A stretch of DNA of 64,000 nt, taken from positions 1,177,156-1,241,155 of the forward strand of contig OY282363.1 of assembly GCA_958295695.1 (NCBI GenBank), written 5' to 3'. Positions 8,530 to 59,634 of the stretch are shown piece by piece (position 1 is the stretch's first letter; each line of letters begins with the position of its first letter). A model generated the notes under the pieces. It saw nothing but the letters and a program-made list of their open reading frames with translations. It was not told the DNA's origin and did no database searches. The stretch is from an uncultured Alphaproteobacteria bacterium (GTDB lineage: Bacteria; Pseudomonadota; Alphaproteobacteria; SP197). A program made the position numbers and the translations under genes.

Positions 8530-8645
8530 GCCCGCCCCACCCCTTTCCCTCATCCCGCGGCGGTCCGGAGGACCGTATCGAGGGACGCCCTTCGGCGGGC
8601 TCGGGGCGGGTTCTCCGATACGCGGCCTTCGGCGGCTACCCGGAG
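8530..8645. repeat. Dispersed intergenic element (copy 2)
   Basis: Between the lipoprotein and the SDR gene lie CCCTTTCCCTCATCCCG, GGTCCGGAGGACCGTATCGAG and CGGGCTCGGGGCGGG, the same words as copy 1 in related order. GGTCCGGAGGACC is itself a palindrome, so a stem-loop is expected. The element sits downstream of two converging genes. Confidence 0.6.
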
Positions 8646-8688
8646 CGGGGGGACGGTCGCGCCCTCCATCCGGCGCCCGGTCCGGGCC

Positions 8689-9381
8689 TCACCAGTCGAG
8701 CGGCCGGCCGTCGTAATCGAGGAAGCGTCCGCTCCGGCCGGGGGTCGCCGCCGCGATCCGGCGGCGCATCCCCGCGACGCTTTCGGCCGGGGAGACCGCG
8801 GCGTCCGGGCCGCCCATGTCCGTCCGCGCCCAGCCGGGATGGAACGCCAGGACCGCGATCCCGCGGCCCGCCAGATCCCTGGCGAGGTTGGCCGTGACCA
8901 TGTTGAGCGCCGTCTTGCTCGTCCGGTAGATGTGGTCTCCCCCCGACCCGTTGCCCGCGATCGAGCCCATCAGGCTCGAGATGTTCGCGATCGTCTTCAT
9001 CGACCCGGCTTCGATCCGGTCGGCCAGCGCCTCGGCCACCCGGTAGGGACCCAGGACGTTCGTCCGCACCGTCTCCTCCCACATGGCGTAGTCGAGGTCG
9101 CGGACCGACTGCCGCCGGCCGCCGAAGATACCGGCGTTGTTGACCAGGACGTCGATCGCCTCGTCCCCGATCGCCCGCCGGAGGTCGCGGATGGCGCGGC
9201 CGTCCCTCACGTCGAGCCGGCGCACCGCGCCGTTCGAGCCGTTCATCAGCGCCCCGAGGTCCCGCGCCTCGTCCGGCCGGCGGCAGCAGGCGTGGACGCG
9301 CCAGCCGTCGGCGAGGTACTGGCGCGCGAACTCGAGCCCGAGGCCCCGGTTGGCGCCGGTGACGAGGACCGTCCTCACCAT
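8689..9381 (-). CDS. Short-chain dehydrogenase/reductase (C-factor type), paralog 2 of a pair
   Basis: 230 residues. Classical SDR features: cofactor loop TGANRGLG (8-15), NNAG (81-84), catalytic S135/S136, and Y152-x3-K156. Short SDRs of this build resemble the C-factor-like group, and their substrates are rarely known. The ATG at 9381 lies 7 bp inside the 3' end of the upstream SDR gene, so translation is probably coupled. The two proteins share the words EFARQYLADGWRVHA, indicating a tandem duplication. NADP preference is likely from the Arg after the glycine loop. Confidence 0.88.
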   Translation of the reverse strand: MVRTVLVTGANRGLGLEFARQYLADGWRVHACCRRPDEARDLGALMNGSNGAVRRLDVRDGRAIRDLRRAIGDEAIDVLVNNAGIFGGRRQSVRDLDYAMWEETVRTNVLGPYRVAEALADRIEAGSMKTIANISSLMGSIAGNGSGGDHIYRTSKTALNMVTANLARDLAGRGIAVLAFHPGWARTDMGGPDAAVSPAESVAGMRRRIAAATPGRSGRFLDYDGRPLDW

Positions 9382-52112: not shown

Positions 52113-52859
52113 TCACACCAGGTGCTGGCCGCCGGTCATCATGATCTCCGTGCCGGAGACATAGGCGCTGTCGCCGCCGCAGAGATAGAAGATCGCGCCG
52201 GCGACCTCGTCGGGCGTTCCCATGCGGCCCAGGGGGATGCGGGGCACGAGGTCGTCGTATTCGGGCGACAGCATGGCCGTCTCGATCTCGCCGGGCGCCA
52301 CGGCGTTCACCCGGACGTTGAGATGGGCGAACTCGCAGGCCATCTCGCGGGTGAGCGCCGACAGGGCGGCCTTCGAGCAGGCGTAGGCGCTGCCGGCGAA
52401 CGGATGGACGCGATGGCCGGCGATGGACGTCACGTTGACGACCGCGCCCCGGCCGCGATGGAGCGGCGCGGCGAACCCCCGCGCCAGGGCCAGCGGCGCG
52501 AAGACGTTGAGCTCGAAAACCTCGCGCCAGTGGTCCAGACCGCCGTTGAGCGTGCCGAGCCGCTCCTTGAAGGATGTCTTGGGCGAGACCCCGGCGTTGT
52601 TGACCAGGGCGTGAACGGGACCGTCGCCGATGAAGGCGTTGGCCTCGTCGACGAACGCGCCGATGCTGGCCTGGCGGGCCAAGTCCGTCGGGATGTGGAG
52701 ATGGGGCGAGTCCTCGGCCTTGCGGTCGAGCGGGATGTCGTCGCGCGAGCAACTGATGACGCGCCAGCCCTCGCGCGCGAAGCGGATGACCGTTTGGTGG
52801 CCGATGCCGCGGCTGGCGCCGGTGACGACGACCGTCTTCATGGCGTCGGGGTCGCCCAT
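52113..52859 (-). CDS. Short-chain dehydrogenase/reductase
   Basis: 248 residues from ATG 52859 with GGAG nine bases upstream; ATG 52841 (MKTVVVTG) is an alternative. Cofactor loop TGASRGIG (13-20), NNAG (87-90), S145, Y159-x3-K163 and the C-terminal YVSGTEIMMTGG are intact, so it should be an active classical SDR. Its first 15 codons and the 120 bp upstream are copied at 57231-57400, and a shorter piece at 58230. It diverges from the restriction-modification gene. Confidence 0.9.
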   Translation of the reverse strand: MGDPDAMKTVVVTGASRGIGHQTVIRFAREGWRVISCSRDDIPLDRKAEDSPHLHIPTDLARQASIGAFVDEANAFIGDGPVHALVNNAGVSPKTSFKERLGTLNGGLDHWREVFELNVFAPLALARGFAAPLHRGRGAVVNVTSIAGHRVHPFAGSAYACSKAALSALTREMACEFAHLNVRVNAVAPGEIETAMLSPEYDDLVPRIPLGRMGTPDEVAGAIFYLCGGDSAYVSGTEIMMTGGQHLV

Positions 52860-52983
52860 CTGGTCTCCGGCGGTGGATCGCGTATGCTCCCTTCTCTCCC
52901 TTGCCGCCGCCGAAATCAACCGCCGTGGGACCCGGCGGAACGCGCGCCGGGGCGGGGACGGCCGGTTGGCGCGCGCTTGCAAG
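52815..52983. repeat. Direct repeat, copy 1 (SDR gene 5' end and upstream)
   Basis: This 170-bp stretch recurs at 57231-57400 with roughly 90% identity. The best conserved block starts CCCTTGCCGCCGCCGAAATC (52908) and continues for over 50 bp without a change. The two copies flank the restriction-modification gene and the membrane-protein gene. Confidence 0.85.
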
Positions 52984-53054
52984 CCGGGACGGGCTCGTCC
53001 ACGACGGAACGAACGCGAAACCGGCGGACGCGGAGAAGGAGTGAAGGGGGTCCG

Positions 53055-56000
53055 GTGAACGATCGAGGCATGGCCAGGGAGGCGTTTCGCGCCTATCGCC
53101 GCGTGGTTTCGGAGACGCTGGCGACGGGTCGGGCGACCGAGCACAGCCACCGGCCCGCGCTGCAAGCGCTTGTCGAGGGGCTGGGCGGCGACGCCGTGCG
53201 CGCCGTCAACGAGCCTTCGCACATCGCCTGCGGCGCGCCCGATTTCGTCGTCACGCGCGGCGGCGCGCCGATTGGCCACATCGAGTGCAAGGACATCGGC
53301 GCGGACCTGGATCGCGTGGAGGCCGGCGAGCAACTGGCGCGCTACAAGGCGGGGCTGCCCAACCTCGTCCTGACCGACTATCTGGAGTTCCGCCGGTACG
53401 CCCACGGCGAGTTGCGCGAGACGGCGCGTGTCGGGCGCGGCGACGGTCGGGGCGGGGTCGCCGCCGAAAGGGACGGCGCGGGACGCGCGGGCGCGTTGTT
53501 CGATGCGTTTCTCGCGGCCGATCCCCCGACGGTCGCCGAGCCGCGCGAGCTCGCCGGGAGGATGGCCGCCAAGGCCCGGCTGCTGCGGGACGGTATCGGA
53601 CGGGCACTCGAGGACGAAGGCCGTTCCGGGCCGCTGCGCGACATGCTGGCCGCCTATCGCGATGTCCTGATCGCGGGCCTGTCCGACGAGGCGTTCGCCG
53701 ACCTGCAGGCCCAGACCGCCGCCTACGGCCTGTTCGCGGCGCGCTGCCTGCACGACGCGGCCGGCCCGTTCACGCGCCAGTCCGCCGTCTTCGCGGACAC
53801 CACGCCGTTCCTGCGCGACGTGTTCGGCCGCATCGCCGGCCCCGGCGTCGATCCGCGCATCGCCTGGATCGTGGACGACCTCGCGTTGCTGCTGGACCGG
53901 GCCGACATGGCGTCGATCCTGGCCGACTTCGGGCGCCGCGGCCGGCGGGAAGACCCGGTGGTGCATTTCTACGAGGACTTCCTGGCGGCCTACGACCCGG
54001 AACTGCGGGAGATGCGCGGCGTCTACTACACGCCGGAACCCGTGGTCTCCTGGATCGTGCGCAGCGTGGATCGGCTCCTGCGCGACCGTTTCGGTCTCGT
54101 CGACGGCCTCGCCTCGACGACGGGCGGCGAAGGGCGTCAAGTGTTGATTCTCGATCCGGCCGTGGGCACGGGCACCTTCCTTCGGGAGGCGGTCGCCCGC
54201 ATCCGCGAAACCGTCGAGGCGCGGGGGCTGGCCGGCGTCTGGCCCGATTACGTCCGGGACCGCCTGTTGCCGCGCCTGTTCGGGTTCGAGCTCCTGATGG
54301 CGCCTTACGCGATCTGCCATCTCAAGCTCGCGCTGGAGATCGGCGGGACGGACGCCGGGTTCGGGATGCCGGACGGCCAGCGCCTCGGGGTCTTCCTGAC
54401 CAACACGCTGGAGGAGCCCCACGAGCGGACCGCCGGCGCGTTGTTCGCCCACGAGATCGCGCGGGAGGCCGCCAGCGCGGACGCCGTGAAACGGGACAAA
54501 CCGGTGATGGCGGTGCTCGGCAACCCGCCGTATTCGGGCCACTCCGCCAACAAGGGCGCATGGATCTCGGAGTTGATCGACCGCTACAAGCGCGATTTCC
54601 CCGAGTTGAGGAAACCCGGGCAGGCGAAATGGCTCAGCGACGATTACGTCAAATTCATCCGTTTCGCCCAATGGCGGATCGAGCGCACGGGCGAGGGCGT
54701 GCTCGGCTTCGTCACCAACCACGCCTGGCTCGACAACCCCACCTTCCGGGGAATGAGGAAGAGCCTGATGGAGACCTTCGACGAAATCCGTCTGCTCGAC
54801 CTGCACGGCAACGCCAAGAAGAAGGAGCGCGCGCCGGACGGCGGCAAGGACGAGAACGTGTTCGACATCCAGCAGGGAGTCGCCATCGGCCTGTTCGTCA
54901 AACATGCGGACCCCGGCGCCGGCCCGGCGCGGGTGTTCCACGCCGACCTGTGGGGCGAGCGCGAAGCCGGCGCCGACGGCGGCAAGTACGGATGGCTCGC
55001 CGTCAACGATGTCGGGAGCACGGAATGGACCGAGCTCGCGCCGAGACCGCCGCTCTACCTGTTCGCGCCGCGCGACGAGGCGTTGAGCGAGGAATACGAG
55101 ACGGCATGGCCAATCCCCGCGATTTTCTCGCCGAACGGGGACCCCGCTCCAGGCGTCGTGACGACGCACGACCAGTTCGCCATCTCATGGACGCCGGAGG
55201 AAGCGGCGGAAAAGGTCCAGCGCCTTCTCGCCACGCGTTCGGAGGAAGAAGCGCGCGGGCTGTGGCGCCTGTGCTCGCAGAACCAGTGGCGATACGACCG
55301 GGCCATGCGCGAGCTCGCGGACGGTTCGTGGCGGGCGCGGATCGAACCGATCCTCTACCGCCCGTTCGACATGCGCGCGACCGTGTTCGACCGGAACGTG
55401 GCCGTGCATCGGCGCGAGCGCGTCATGCGCCATATGTTGTCCGGATCGAATCTGGGTCTTTCCACGACAAGATCGGTTGAGATCGCCGGGGGCTGGGAAC
55501 ACACCTTCGTTTCCCGTGTCCCCATCCAGCATCACGCCGTATCGCTGAAGGAAGTCAATTATCTGTTCCCGCTCTATACGTATCCGACGGAAACGCCCGC
55601 CAGTGTTGGCGGCATCCGCGAACCGAATCTGGATATGGATTTCGTCGGGGCGTTCCATACCGCTCTCGACCTCGATTTCATCGGCGACGGCGCGGGCGAC
55701 CTCTCGACCGCGTTCGGGCCGGAGGACATCTTCCACTACGTCTACGCCGTGCTTCACAGCCCGGAATACCGCCGCCGCTACGCGCCTTTCCTGAAGTCGG
55801 ACTTCCCGCGCATCCCGTTGACCGGGAGCCGGCCCCTGTTCGCGGCGCTGGCGGGGCTCGGCCAACGTCTCGCCGCCCTGCACCTGATGGACGCCGAAGG
55901 CGCGGACCTGCCCGCTTTCCCGCGCGCGGGCGGGAACCGGGTGGACAAGGTGCGCTATGCGCCCCCTTCGGCGGGAACGGAGCCCGGGCGGGTGTGGATC

Positions 56001-56234
56001 AACCGCGATCAGTATTTCGAGGGCGTGGACTCCGGGACATGGGCGTTCGCCATCGGCGGCTACCGTCCGGCGGAGAAGTGGCTGAAGGACCGCGGGAACC
56101 GCGTCCTCTCGTTCGATGACGTCGCCCACTACCGCCGCGTCTGCGCCGCCCTCGCGGAAACCCGCCGCGTCATGGCGCGCATCGACGAAGCTATCGGGGA
56201 ACACGGCGGATGGCCGCTGGGCGGGGACGGGTAG
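53055..56234 (+). CDS. Type IIG/ISP-like restriction-modification enzyme (nuclease and N6-adenine methylase in one chain)
   Basis: 1059 residues from GTG 53055, preceded by AAGGGGG. The N-terminus has a PD-(D/E)XK nuclease core: P62-D63 then E77-C-K79 (HIECKDIG). A helical region leads to the methylase: motif I LDPAVGTGTFLREAV near 366 and motif IV NPPYSGHSANKG near 490. The C-terminal 450 residues, with GLSTTRSVEIAGGW and KSDFPRIPLTGSRPLF, would recognise DNA. Family members annotated as type ISP often add a helicase; none is present here, so it behaves like a self-contained type IIG enzyme. Cutting and methylation specificity cannot be predicted. Probably an anti-phage function. Confidence 0.88.
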   Translation: MNDRGMAREAFRAYRRVVSETLATGRATEHSHRPALQALVEGLGGDAVRAVNEPSHIACGAPDFVVTRGGAPIGHIECKDIGADLDRVEAGEQLARYKAGLPNLVLTDYLEFRRYAHGELRETARVGRGDGRGGVAAERDGAGRAGALFDAFLAADPPTVAEPRELAGRMAAKARLLRDGIGRALEDEGRSGPLRDMLAAYRDVLIAGLSDEAFADLQAQTAAYGLFAARCLHDAAGPFTRQSAVFADTTPFLRDVFGRIAGPGVDPRIAWIVDDLALLLDRADMASILADFGRRGRREDPVVHFYEDFLAAYDPELREMRGVYYTPEPVVSWIVRSVDRLLRDRFGLVDGLASTTGGEGRQVLILDPAVGTGTFLREAVARIRETVEARGLAGVWPDYVRDRLLPRLFGFELLMAPYAICHLKLALEIGGTDAGFGMPDGQRLGVFLTNTLEEPHERTAGALFAHEIAREAASADAVKRDKPVMAVLGNPPYSGHSANKGAWISELIDRYKRDFPELRKPGQAKWLSDDYVKFIRFAQWRIERTGEGVLGFVTNHAWLDNPTFRGMRKSLMETFDEIRLLDLHGNAKKKERAPDGGKDENVFDIQQGVAIGLFVKHADPGAGPARVFHADLWGEREAGADGGKYGWLAVNDVGSTEWTELAPRPPLYLFAPRDEALSEEYETAWPIPAIFSPNGDPAPGVVTTHDQFAISWTPEEAAEKVQRLLATRSEEEARGLWRLCSQNQWRYDRAMRELADGSWRARIEPILYRPFDMRATVFDRNVAVHRRERVMRHMLSGSNLGLSTTRSVEIAGGWEHTFVSRVPIQHHAVSLKEVNYLFPLYTYPTETPASVGGIREPNLDMDFVGAFHTALDLDFIGDGAGDLSTAFGPEDIFHYVYAVLHSPEYRRRYAPFLKSDFPRIPLTGSRPLFAALAGLGQRLAALHLMDAEGADLPAFPRAGGNRVDKVRYAPPSAGTEPGRVWINRDQYFEGVDSGTWAFAIGGYRPAEKWLKDRGNRVLSFDDVAHYRRVCAALAETRRVMARIDEAIGEHGGWPLGGDG

Positions 56235-56289
56235 CGCTCGCGCGCCGCGAGAGCGCGTCGCCGGGAGCGTCCGCCGGACGCCCTTGGCT

Positions 56290-56418
56290 TTATCCGCTCT
56301 TGGGCTTCGGCGGCGGCGGCGGCGGCGGCGGTTTGAGGCTGGCCGTTGGAGCTTTGCGCGACACGGCCTCAGCTATACGTATACGCTTCACCGGCGATAA
56401 GGTCGGCTCCTTCGCCAT
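56290..56418 (-). CDS. Proline-rich small protein, 42 aa, downstream of DUF6338-like gene
   Basis: Starts at ATG 56418, stop TAA 56290. AAGGAG lies eight bases before the ATG and overlaps the TAA stop of the upstream membrane-protein gene, an ideal coupled start. The peptide begins MAKEPTLSPVKRIRIAEAVS, continues basic and Ala-rich, then has eight consecutive prolines and ends K-P-K-S-G. Such polyproline tails bind SH3-like or WW-like partners or need EF-P for translation. No known family is recognised. The strong ribosome site and the tight spacing make it credible despite its size. Confidence 0.65.
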   Translation of the reverse strand: MAKEPTLSPVKRIRIAEAVSRKAPTASLKPPPPPPPPKPKSG

Positions 56419-56430
56419 CGGTCGGTCTCC

Positions 56431-57033
56431 TTACCCCGCCCCCTCGGATGTGGGCAGGAACTCGATTATGCCCACCTCCGCGGCGGGAACAAGGACCGCG
56501 GAGACGTTTTCCAAAGGAGTTCCCTTGTTCTCCTCATCCAGCCATTCGGCCTCGGCCATGCGAAAATGACCGTCCGTCGGATCGCTCGGCCACTCCTCGG
56601 CATATCCGTAGAGACGCCGCTCTCCTTGCAAATGCAGCACGATGTAACAACGGTCTCCGTGCCGTGCGAACGTGGAGTACCACTCCGAAGGATAAGACGT
56701 TTCTCTGGTCATGCGAAGCCGGCGAAGAAATCTGTGCAATACGTCCGAGTTGGAAAGACAGGATGAACACAATCCAAGAATGATCGCGATAAGCACGGAT
56801 AATCCAGGTTCCCATATCTCTATCGTCCGAGCATTCTCTTGTATGTCGATCAATATCAAGAGGGAGTATTCGGTCGTCATCTGACCGATCAGCGTGAATA
56901 TCAGAGCCAGGATGACGCGATCGAACGCACCGGGTTTAGGATGCGACGTGAGAGAATAGAAAATCGCGGCGGCAATGAATCCCGGAAGGAGAAACGTGAG
57001 AACGTCGACTATTTCATTGGTGGCCCAGATCAT
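56431..57033 (-). CDS. DUF6338-like membrane protein
   Basis: 200 residues. Three membrane helices (about 7-28, 39-63 and 76-92) are followed by a soluble C-terminal domain of about 100 residues. That domain has YIVLHLQGERRLYGYAEEWP, then HFRMAEAEWLDEENKGTPL and a C-terminal IIEFLPT, which I recall from DUF6338 proteins; the name is from memory and uncertain. GC is lower than the window average and codon choice differs, indicating transfer. It heads a two-gene unit with the proline-rich peptide and sits between the restriction enzyme and a toxin-antitoxin pair. A defence role is plausible but unproven. Confidence 0.7.
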   Translation of the reverse strand: MIWATNEIVDVLTFLLPGFIAAAIFYSLTSHPKPGAFDRVILALIFTLIGQMTTEYSLLILIDIQENARTIEIWEPGLSVLIAIILGLCSSCLSNSDVLHRFLRRLRMTRETSYPSEWYSTFARHGDRCYIVLHLQGERRLYGYAEEWPSDPTDGHFRMAEAEWLDEENKGTPLENVSAVLVPAAEVGIIEFLPTSEGAG

Positions 57034-57169: not shown

Positions 57170-57279
57170 TTGCCGCGCCTCGGTGCGTGAAGAGCGCCGG
57201 GAGGTTGGCGCGGTTCGACATGAAACGGCCGGCGCCGGTGACGACGACCGTCTTCATGGCGTCAGGATCGGCCATCGGG
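57170..57279 (-). repeat. Chimeric repeat A: 3' end of the stress-protein gene fused to 5' end of the SDR gene
   Basis: 57173-57228 matches 58764-58819, the last 16 codons of the universal stress gene; 57231-57279 matches the first codons of the SDR gene at 52815-52860. On the minus strand they form one frame, MADPDAMKTVVVTGAGRFM then SNRANLPALFTH, with the former stop TGA changed to CGA. The join is at the shared word GGCGCC. The SDR-derived half extends on to 57400. The part 57034-57169 holds no gene and presumably the promoter of the membrane-protein gene. Confidence 0.85.
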
Positions 57280-57400
57280 CCTCCGGCGTCGGATCGTATG
57301 TGCTCCCTTCTCCCCCTTGCCGCCGCCGAAATCAACCGCCGTGGGACCCGGCGGAACGCGCGCCGGGGCAGGACCGGCCGGTTTGCGCGCGCGCTTCAGG
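57231..57400. repeat. Direct repeat, copy 2 (SDR 5' end and upstream)
   Basis: Second copy of 52815-52983; see that entry. It abuts the 3' end of higA at 57396, so the boundary of homology coincides with the boundary of the toxin-antitoxin module. Confidence 0.85.
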
Positions 57401-57701
57401 TCGGCCGGTAGCGTTTGACGTCGATTTCGTCGGCGCGGCGGCGCATCGTGTGGCTATCGCGCCACGCTCCCATCCTCAAGAGTGTGTCCATGGAAAGGCC
57501 GAAGGCCTTCTCGATCCTGAGCGCCATTTCCGGCGACAGGCCCGTCTTGCCGTTGACGAGGTCCGACAAGGTCGCCCGGCGCACGCCCAGAATGTCGGCC
57601 GCGCGAGCGATCGGGAGGTTCAGCTCCTCCAGGATCTCGGTGCGGATGAAGCTGCCGGGATGCGGCGGCGTCATGCCGATCTTCATTCGCTTGTCGTTCA
57701 T
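57396..57701 (-). CDS. higA: HigA-type antitoxin (helix-turn-helix)
   Basis: 101 residues from ATG 57701. HigA words: TPPHPGSFIRTEILEELNLP, ARAADILGVRRATLSDLVNG as the helix-turn-helix, and LSPEMALRIEKAFGLSMDTLL. It should neutralise HigB and repress the operon by binding the palindrome upstream of higB. The toxin gene comes first, as usual for higBA. The last codons touch direct repeat copy 2. Confidence 0.95.
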   Translation of the reverse strand: MNDKRMKIGMTPPHPGSFIRTEILEELNLPIARAADILGVRRATLSDLVNGKTGLSPEMALRIEKAFGLSMDTLLRMGAWRDSHTMRRRADEIDVKRYRPT

Positions 57702-57755
57702 TGTCGGCAATCCCTCAAGTCCGGGCCGCGACCGGCGCTATCGGCGTCCGGCCGG

Positions 57756-58040
57756 TCAGTGATAGTCCTCGAAGTCCAGGTCGGAAATCGCGCCATCGTC
57801 GATTTCGAAGGTGATCCGCCAGTTGCCGGAGACGCTGATGCTCCAGAGTCCCGCCCGGTCGCCCGACAGCCGATGGATACGCCAACCTGGAGGCCCCCGC
57901 ACGTCATCGATGTCCGCCGCGCTGACAAGGGCGGCCAGGATGTTGCGCACACGCACGATCAGGTCGGGCCGGATTCCCCTGCCGTCGTCGGCCTCGAGCA
58001 GCCGCCGGAGGCCTTTGTGACGGACGGTTCGTATCTCCAC
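57756..58040 (-). CDS. higB: HigB-type toxin (RelE superfamily mRNA interferase)
   Basis: 94 residues from GTG 58040. Family words: VRHKGLRRLLEADDGRGI, GWRIHRLSGDRAGLWSISVS, GNWRITFEIDDG and the terminal FEDYH. HigB cleaves mRNA on translating ribosomes. The frame is open upstream to 58277 and passes through chimeric repeat B, but the repeat is not part of the toxin. The gap to higA is 54 bp. Confidence 0.93.
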   Translation of the reverse strand: MEIRTVRHKGLRRLLEADDGRGIRPDLIVRVRNILAALVSAADIDDVRGPPGWRIHRLSGDRAGLWSISVSGNWRITFEIDDGAISDLDFEDYH

Positions 58041-58047
58041 ACGCGCG

Positions 58048-58074
58048 CATGTACGGTATTGCCGTACAAATGTC
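58048..58074 (-). promoter_or_regulatory. higBA promoter and operator
   Basis: A perfect inverted repeat TGTACGG (58048-58054) / CCGTACA (58060-58066) with a 5-bp centre lies 8-26 bp upstream of the higB start. On the minus strand a consensus -35 box TTGACA (58069-58074) precedes it, and 17 bp further TACATG can serve as -10, so the palindrome covers the spacer. Bound HigA would block polymerase, giving autorepression. Confidence 0.7.
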
Positions 58075-58171
58075 AACGGCGGAACGACGATTCCGCCATT
58101 GTCCCAGCCCCACCTATCTCGGGTCTTGTTCGTCAGATGGCGTCCAGGCGTTCGCGGTCGGTCCCGGCCGT

Positions 58172-58281
58172 TTGCCGCGCCTCGGTGCGTGAAGAGCGCC
58201 GGGAGGCTGGCGCGATTCGGCATGAAGCGGCCGGCGCCGGTGACGACGCCCGTCTTCATGGCGTCAGGATCGGCCATCGGG
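58172..58281 (-). repeat. Chimeric repeat B: second copy of the stress-protein/SDR fusion
   Basis: 110 bp matching repeat A with about six substitutions. It has the same join (GGCGCC) and the same CGA in place of the stress-protein stop, so A and B descend from one fusion. Here the homology to the SDR gene stops at its start codon, where the acetyltransferase gene begins: the stop codon and last few codons of that gene lie inside the repeat. Confidence 0.85.
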
Positions 58282-58731
58282 CTTCCAGCGGTAGGTCGCG
58301 TCCGGTTCCCTTTCCTCTTCGCTCACGCCGAAAGCAACCGCGACGAGACCGCGACTCTCGTAGAACGCGCGCGCCGCCCGGTTGGCCTGGAACGTATGGA
58401 GCGTGAAACCGGACGGCCTGAGCGTCATGACATCGTATAGCAGGGCCGATCCGGCGCCCCGCCGCTGAAGCTCGGGCGCGACGAACAACTGGTCGACGAC
58501 ACCGCCGCGGAGGCAATGAAAGCCGACGCTCCGGCCGGCCGCCTCCGCCACGCGCACGGCGTCCCATTCGTCGAAGGACGCGCGGACGAAACCGGCGAAG
58601 TCGTCGTCGCCATGGGTCCAGGCCATGAAGGTGTAGGCGGCCCGGGTCGAGCGGGCCAGAATGTCGGCGATGACGGGGATGTCGTCGCGAACGGCGTCGC
58701 GCACGACGATGGCCGCCTCGCCCCGCGTCAT
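58264..58731 (-). CDS. GNAT family N-acetyltransferase
   Basis: 155 residues from ATG 58731 (GTG 58749 is possible). Acetyl-CoA-binding motif A: VDQLFVAPELQRRGAGSALL. The C-terminal HTFQANRAARAFYESRGLVA is also typical. The final codons (KPDGRS and TGA) are supplied by chimeric repeat B, so the original C-terminus may have been replaced. Substrate unknown. The gene is 39 bp downstream of the universal stress gene on the same strand. Confidence 0.88.
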   Translation of the reverse strand: MTRGEAAIVVRDAVRDDIPVIADILARSTRAAYTFMAWTHGDDDFAGFVRASFDEWDAVRVAEAAGRSVGFHCLRGGVVDQLFVAPELQRRGAGSALLYDVMTLRPSGFTLHTFQANRAARAFYESRGLVAVAFGVSEEEREPDATYRWKPDGRS

Positions 58732-58770
58732 GCGCCGCGATCCGGACACATGGCCCGGCCGCCCCGCGCC

Positions 58771-59634
58771 TCAGTGCGTGAAGAGCACCGGGAGGCTGGC
58801 CCGGTTCAGCATGAAACGGGTGGCGCCGCCCAGGATGAGCTGGCGCAGCTTGCCCTGGCTGAAGGCGCCCATGACGATGAAGGCGGCGTCTTCCGTGCGG
58901 GCGATCTCGAGCAGCGTGTCGCCGATGTTGGTCCAGTTGGTCGGCAGGTTGTGGACGTGGCACGGGATGTCGTGGAGCGCCAGATAGCCGGCCAGCGCGT
59001 CCGGTCCGGGCCCGCGCATCGAGCCTTCCTCCGGCGCCATGATCGCCACCTTGTCGGCCTTCCGGAGCAGCGGCATGGCGCGGTGGACGGCCCGCGCCGC
59101 CTCGGCGCTGCCGTTCCAGGCCACCGCGGCGCCGCCGCTCAGGTCCGAAACGTGGCCGGCGGGAACCAGCAGCAGGCCGCTGCCGGATTCCATCAGGACC
59201 GATTCCGCCACGACCTCCTCCTTCGCGTCGCCGTCCGCCGTCGGACGCGCGGCGACGACGAGGTCGCACAGCCGTCCGCGCTCGGCGATGACCTCGTCCT
59301 CGCGGCCCTCGTCCTGCCGGAAGGCGACGGACGCCTGTCCGCGGGCCGGACGCCGGCCGATCTCCATGCCCAGGCGCTTCGCGATGGCGTCGAGGTCCGC
59401 CGCGGCGCTGTCCGCGCGCCTGTCGATGTCCCGCTCGGCCGTCGCGATGATTTCCTCGATGACGGCCCCGGTCATGCCTTCGGTCATGAAGGCCACGGCG
59501 TCGCGCGGATTGCGGCGCACGTTGATGGCCTCGACATGGGCCTTGAAGCGCATCCCGAGCAGAAGCGCAGTCTCGATGGCGCCTCGTCCCTCCTCGGCGC
59601 CCGAGGCGGCGACCAGAATCTTGGCGATGGGCAT
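58771..59634 (-). CDS. Universal stress protein, two tandem UspA domains
   Basis: 287 residues from ATG 59634, with GGGAGGA eight bases upstream. The second domain ends with the ATP-binding pattern GAFSQGKLRQLILGGATRFM, while the first domain's equivalent is degenerate (VVAARPTADGDAKEEVVAES). Tandem UspA proteins respond to starvation and redox stress. Its last 16 codons, including RFMLNRASLPVLFTH, are the source of the 3' half of the chimeric repeats. Confidence 0.9.
   Translation of the reverse strand: MPIAKILVAASGAEEGRGAIETALLLGMRFKAHVEAINVRRNPRDAVAFMTEGMTGAVIEEIIATAERDIDRRADSAAADLDAIAKRLGMEIGRRPARGQASVAFRQDEGREDEVIAERGRLCDLVVAARPTADGDAKEEVVAESVLMESGSGLLLVPAGHVSDLSGGAAVAWNGSAEAARAVHRAMPLLRKADKVAIMAPEEGSMRGPGPDALAGYLALHDIPCHVHNLPTNWTNIGDTLLEIARTEDAAFIVMGAFSQGKLRQLILGGATRFMLNRASLPVLFTH

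Follow-up and report, generated by a model that had tools for sequence, protein, structure and literature searches.

A membrane protein of the DUF6338 family and a small, basic, proline-rich protein encoded directly downstream of it constitute a two-gene module that is new and widespread. A hitherto unnamed domain and a neglected class of 40- to 75-residue proteins, usually missed by gene callers, come together as one definable module across many phyla. We read it as a self-contained, horizontally moving conflict module, probably directed against phages, in which the microprotein would gate an Sm-fold membrane effector; we put the probability of this reading at roughly 0.5. The module is a candidate new anti-phage effector that can be tested through its copies in E. 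coli prophages.

The locus and its repeat-flanked cassette

The stretch of DNA analyzed here (the window) comprises 64,000 nucleotides from an uncultured alphaproteobacterium. An earlier note on it had proposed a candidate two-gene system, a three-helix membrane protein followed by a 42-residue proline-rich peptide, and both open reading frames (ORFs) lie on the minus strand where it had placed them. The features of the region are listed below.

56431..57033, minus strand: DUF6338 (PF19865) membrane protein, 200 aa (Pfam, AlphaFold, Foldseek, VIA-align)
56290..56418, minus strand: basic proline-rich microprotein, 42 aa, polyproline class, partner of DUF6338 (homologous ORF at the same place in all 54 loci of the clade, purifying selection)
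56427..56432, minus strand: AAGGAG ribosome-binding site of the microprotein gene, overlapping the DUF6338 stop codon TAA at 56431-56433 (sequence)
56308..56331, minus strand: (CCG)8 run encoding eight prolines, followed by KPKSG (codons)
56267..56281: terminator-like hairpin GCGTCC-GCC-GGACGC between the convergent restriction gene and the microprotein gene (scan, consensus match only)
53052..56234, plus strand: type ISP/IIG restriction-methylation gene, convergent neighbor in the same cassette (Type_ISP_C E 5e-76; PADLOC REase_MTase_IIG E 1e-257)
52810..52976: left copy of the 167-bp direct repeat flanking the cassette (90% identity to 57226-57392)
57226..57392: right copy of the same repeat (90% identity to the left copy)
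57396..57710, minus strand: HigA-like HTH antitoxin of a neighboring module (HTH_3 E 1.3e-11)
57756..58277, minus strand: ORF with a HigB-like toxin as its C-terminal part (residues 85-173), same neighboring module (PF05015 E 7e-15)

The microprotein ORF begins 12 nt past the DUF6338 TAA and in the same frame, the two genes together spanning 56290-57033 of the minus strand, and 8 nt separate AAGGAG from its ATG. The overlap of this ribosome-binding site with the upstream stop and the eight prolines ending in KPKSG had been pointed out before, and both are present as described. The same is true of the setting, between a restriction enzyme (the type ISP/IIG gene) and a toxin-antitoxin pair (HigA/HigB type), and of the lower GC content of the membrane protein gene (53.7%, versus 70.8% for the window).

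The restriction gene, the DUF6338 gene, and the microprotein gene make up a 4.2-kb cassette with the 167-bp repeats at both ends. A third copy of this repeat lies at 58228-58394, and a second repeat set occupies 57173-57237, 58175-58239, and 58764-58828. The repeated junction fragments correspond to the 3' end of a universal-stress-protein gene and the 5' region of an SDR gene; they bracket successive inserts, namely, the restriction and DUF6338 cassette, the HigBA module, and a GNAT gene. This pattern looks like stepwise insertion at a single site with target duplication.

A microprotein gene paired with DUF6338

The window microprotein, MAKEPTLSPVKRIRIAEAVSRKAPTASLKPPPPPPPPKPKSG, has 42 residues, 12 of them prolines, and a net charge of +7; its C-terminal end reads PPPPPPPPKPKSG. 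Its proline run is a pure (CCG)8, so that this locus alone could be a triplet-repeat artifact. Among homologs, synonymous codons are mixed in 34 of 39 proline runs of five or more residues, and pairwise comparison of the peptide genes gave a pooled pS of 0.47 versus a pN of 0.14, which indicates purifying selection. Most homologs also have a Shine-Dalgarno-like sequence and an overlapping or nearby microprotein start, and several carry a RefSeq annotation. The microprotein is a real gene, and its coding status is settled. No family was found for these microproteins in PHROGs, NCBIfam, Pfam, or PADLOC.

Its relatives are basic, disordered, proline-rich proteins of 40 to 75 residues. They are hydrophilic (GRAVY about -1.3; median net charge +4 to +6.5), with neither a membrane segment nor a hydrophobic leader (maximum 15-mer hydropathy 0.79). 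Given these properties, they are most likely cytoplasmic, the compartment in which the Sm-fold domain of the partner is predicted to lie.

We collected DUF6338 loci from class and phylum samples, 84,980 species genomes, plasmids, phages, viral contigs, and E. coli. Under a strict rule (a proline-rich ORF of 25 to 80 aa whose start falls between -70 and +60 nt relative to the DUF6338 stop), 48 of the 54 intact loci of the polyproline clade have such an ORF, versus 8 of 607 control genes at the same loci (Fisher p about 1e-57). The six loci outside the rule also carry a peptide on inspection, bringing the count to 54/54. Outside this clade, a second class of microprotein takes the place of the polyproline type. 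These peptides typically contain two or three [DKN]G[YWF]QP boxes, hence repeated GYQP or GWQP, plus a PPPKKR-like end, and they are often encoded by two or three tandem genes; the motifs of the polyproline clade are KPPPP...KK, NPPPP, and GxNxNPPPP. By a motif rule, a GY-type peptide is present at 27/38 loci outside the polyproline clade versus 3/255 control genes, and most loci failing the rule carry a variant peptide that it misses. The pattern [DENKRGTA]G[YWF][QTSIKV]P occurs 42 times in GYQP-class peptides, compared with 0.2 expected from shuffling. Conversely, when a GYQP peptide alone served as the query, two viral contigs came up, and in each of them a DUF6338 gene lies immediately upstream.

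The microprotein is a near-universal partner of DUF6338; three remote or unclear members of the family (L033, L014, and L016) showed no convincing partner peptide. Clustering of the neighboring genes revealed no constant third gene. The two-gene system proposed in the earlier note is thus a genuine unit, and what that note had named as speaking against it, homologs consistently lacking the downstream ORF and no selection on it, is the opposite of what the pairing and the pS and pN values show.

Several arrangements deserve mention in their own right. At two apparent exceptions, L079 and L096, the microprotein gene overlaps an extended DUF6338 3' end, out of frame, by roughly 100 nt (about 8652-8840 and about 8589-8733, respectively). 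Two or three tandem microprotein genes follow a single DUF6338 gene at L079 (8650-9270), L083 (8610-8800), L066, L063, L100, L111, L116, and L124. A translation-arrest leader of the EF-P-sensing kind was also considered and rejected, since the ORF follows DUF6338 rather than preceding it and long proline runs are missing from the GYQP class.

Predicted fold, distribution, and neighborhoods

Pfam assigns the window protein to DUF6338 with an E value of 1.5e-13 (51.2 bits versus a gathering cut-off of 26.5), the match spanning profile positions 8-201 of 205. An AlphaFold model built from 61 aligned sequences has a mean pLDDT of 92.6. In agreement with the three helices and soluble domain read earlier from the sequence, the model and the hydrophobicity give three long hydrophobic membrane helices (residues 2-28, 36-64, and 68-96) and a soluble domain at about residues 112-196. 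Past helix 3, the chain forms short helices and then, at 129-194, a barrel of five strands, the last of them preceded by a helical turn, so that the N-terminal helix and five-strand barrel of Sm proteins are both present in the model. At E<=1e-3, Foldseek matched the model to 98 PDB chains, of which the 50 listed belong to the Sm/LSm type; VIA-align placed residues 115-195 on the archaeal Sm protein 1i8f with a Z score of 10.4 and 1.9 A over 73 residues. Independently of these structural matches, a profile search ranked an archaeal Like-Sm protein first, with a weak score (E 0.58). We consider an Sm fold of the inner domain strongly predicted. Basic residues cluster behind helix 3, which by the positive-inside rule would put this domain in the cytoplasm; three helices followed by a cytoplasmic Sm-fold domain are likewise strongly predicted.

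Classical Sm proteins hold uridine through an arginine-glycine pair in Sm2 and aspartate/asparagine residues in Sm1. When DUF6338 is aligned with the Sm consensus, the Sm1 Asp/Asn pocket is not conserved, nor is the Sm2 RG, which is PA in the window protein and varied residues in others. Therefore, classical RNA binding is not expected.

DUF6338/microprotein pairs occur in about ten phyla. By record titles, many of them of metagenome-assembled genomes (MAGs) for which single assignments may err, they are found in Alpha- and Gammaproteobacteria, Acidobacteriota, Binatia, Chloroflexota, Planctomycetota, Nitrospira, Desulfobacterales, Dadabacteria, Glassbacteria, a Bacteroidota MAG, and Actinomycetota. 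Within this range the distribution is patchy. About 5% of the genomes of the class have DUF6338, and the sampled genomes from the same genus (one) and the same family (three) lack the gene. A DNA search with the Pantoea copy as the query found it in 8 of 5426 E. coli genomes, and the same search with the Proteus copy found nothing, as did phage and viral searches with the window protein.

The earlier note had also suspected a defense-type setting, and such neighborhoods do recur in unrelated lineages. In Paludisphaera, the pair lies directly behind IetA-IetS; in Proteus, a Tn7-like element carries it with a ThsB-like TIR protein and a caspase; and in Curtobacterium, it adjoins a caspase-TIR pair, so that the TIR and caspase context is found in two phyla. 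The Mesorhizobium locus (L120) places it within a gene row of a CBASS cyclase and a 2TM effector and is the only one with a CD-NTase cyclase in the operon; no cyclase adjoins the window pair. The pair adjoins a CHAT protein in Streptomyces, and in Acinetobacter it stands behind a WYL regulator, a metallohydrolase, and an E2-E1-JAB fusion. A Klebsiella phage-plasmid and a 10-kb Acinetobacter plasmid carry it as well. In E. coli and Pantoea, it is found in accessory loci of P2-like prophages, one of them after the PADLOC phage-defense candidate PDC-S64, and hotspots in P2-like prophages are known to harbor anti-phage systems (PMC9122126). The recurrence of proteases (caspase, CHAT, S8, and JAB) comes from a handful of plasmid loci. 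Many chromosomal loci of the polyproline clade adjoin housekeeping genes instead, including those for ATP synthase gamma, a topoisomerase, and a sulfate transporter (named by sequence reading). PADLOC matches are no denser near DUF6338 than 4.5 to 8 kb away, and PADLOC 2.0.0 gave no family for the window DUF6338 and microprotein, six further DUF6338 proteins, or two GYQP peptides.

Some individual loci show further details. On a Fluviibacter plasmid (L112, 786-3173), the gene of a 795-aa methyltransferase-like protein, another restriction-type partner, stops 18 nt upstream of DUF6338. Within P2-like prophages of E. coli (L141, 7143-7944, and L143, 7145-7943), DUF6338 follows a zinc-ribbon protein and a small ORF, which may make this a four-gene unit. 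On a Pantoea phage-plasmid (L118, 10001-10774), the DUF6338 frame is broken and the downstream GYQP microprotein is intact.

Proposed mechanism, alternatives, and known systems

The two peptide classes follow two forms of the DUF6338 barrel. W148, P149, W164, R139, and R140 are 93 to 100% conserved in the polyproline clade and not in the GY clade, a matching that is partly expected because DUF6338 and its peptide share a phylogeny. Polyproline ligands are commonly held by conserved tryptophans. In a model of the two proteins fused by read-through, pLDDT is 76 to 81 for the polyproline tail and about 47 for the linker, which is suggestive only, because isolated polyproline can be locally well predicted.

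From these observations we infer binding and gating by the microprotein, an effector role for DUF6338, its toxicity, and phage defense. DUF6338 would sit in the inner membrane through its three helices and expose its Sm-fold domain to the cytoplasm, where the disordered, positively charged microprotein would present several short proline motifs to it. These repeated motifs could dock on several Sm-fold domains, possibly arranged in a ring, and the docked microprotein would keep the membrane protein inactive or assemble it. Release of a membrane-damaging effector may then follow when a neighboring sensor or protease module signals or when a phage interferes with the microprotein; proteases recur among the linked sensors. 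If so, this would be a bacterial case of a predicted Sm-fold domain paired with a putative proline-motif ligand. More tentatively, the pair might be a plug-in immunity effector cassette, a membrane-anchored Sm-fold ring held shut by the multivalent microprotein and fired by different sensor modules (CBASS, ietAS, TIR-caspase, CHAT, and E1/E2-JAB), several of which would act by cleaving the microprotein.

The one paper found that names DUF6338 concerns Pseudomonas stutzeri ATCC 14405. There, a DUF6338 gene shares a predicted operon with the genes of three proline-rich proteins of <50 aa, which digest-free proteomics detected by mass spectrometry (44 to 114 spectra); the proteins were judged species-restricted and possibly de novo, and possible antimicrobial roles were suggested for such proteins (PMC10433244). 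They agree with the DUF6338 partner in position, size, and composition. Should they be the same, the de novo interpretation does not stand. The breadth of the pairing puts in question the view of such microproteins as recent local inventions. In the sources searched, no function is recorded for DUF6338, and neither its Sm-type fold nor its microprotein partner is described.

The most probable of the alternatives, though unlikely, is a constitutive two-subunit membrane complex in which the microprotein serves the Sm-fold protein structurally or in assembly, as a subunit, and the physiological role is unrelated to phages. Universal 1:1 or 1:several pairing and strong conservation would fit such a complex, as would the housekeeping neighbors of several chromosomal copies and the abundance of the P. 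stutzeri peptides in ordinary aerobic and oxygen-limited growth (PMC10433244). Yet the patchy distribution described above argues against it, as does carriage of the pair by prophages, phage-plasmids, small plasmids, and a Tn7-like element.

A strict toxin-antitoxin system, with DUF6338 as a membrane toxin neutralized directly by a labile microprotein, is quite unlikely. It would account for the two-gene unit, the overlapping genes, the mobile or island location, the tandem microprotein copies, and the intact microprotein beside a frameshifted DUF6338 at the Pantoea locus L118. However, the toxin would come first in the gene order, the microprotein has no recognizable DNA-binding domain, and the Sm-fold domain has no obvious toxin activity. 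The earlier note had named both a membrane effector with a small regulator and a toxin with its antidote, and no sequence evidence separates a toxin with an antidote from a subunit with a ligand.

It is very unlikely that the microprotein serves as a proline-rich antimicrobial peptide, with DUF6338 conferring immunity to it or exporting it, despite the basic, proline-rich character of the peptide, its length of 40 to 60 residues, and the roles suggested for the P. stutzeri proteins (PMC10433244). The missing hydrophobic leader speaks against this bacteriocin-like pair, and no transporter or maturation gene is constant among the DUF6338 neighbors. To our knowledge, GYQP repeats do not resemble known proline-rich antimicrobials. 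A non-coding triplet-repeat or GC-rich artifact, for which the pure (CCG)8 run and the 71% GC of the window could be cited, has a negligible probability, being refuted by conservation across phyla, pairing, selection, mixed codons, RefSeq annotation of several homologs, and mass spectrometry in P. stutzeri (PMC10433244).

None of the known defense, toxin-antitoxin, or channel families tested here describes the DUF6338 module. Like Sm, LSm, and Hfq proteins (archaeal SmAP 1i8f and 1i5l; Z about 10), the DUF6338 model has an N-terminal helix, a five-strand barrel, and a helical turn between the last two strands; unlike them, it is membrane-tethered and does not conserve the Sm2 arginine-glycine and Sm1 aspartate/asparagine pocket. 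The mechanosensitive channel MscS consists of three membrane helices followed by an Sm-like beta domain, an order that DUF6338 shares, but the C-terminal domains of MscS are absent from it. Membership in the MscS family was rejected, with an hhalign probability of 0.4% against 12 MscS-family proteins and no PF00924 match in the window DUF6338. Bacterial gasdermins and CBASS/SLATT effectors offer a possible analogy, as membrane proteins that kill or arrest the infected cell and lie near caspase-like or CHAT proteases or within a cyclase operon. DUF6338 differs from them in its predicted Sm fold and in having a separate microprotein in place of an autoinhibitory peptide, and gasdermins are not among its listed structural matches. 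In the way it may work, the pair also recalls the SH3, WW, GYF, and EVH1 domains of eukaryotes, in which an aromatic-bearing surface (W148 and W164 in DUF6338) meets a polyproline ligand, although the domain here is a different one and the binding is putative. Finally, the P. stutzeri operon resembles the window locus in joining a DUF6338 gene to small proline-rich proteins; in contrast to the species restriction reported there (PMC10433244), a partner of this type is found here in about ten phyla.
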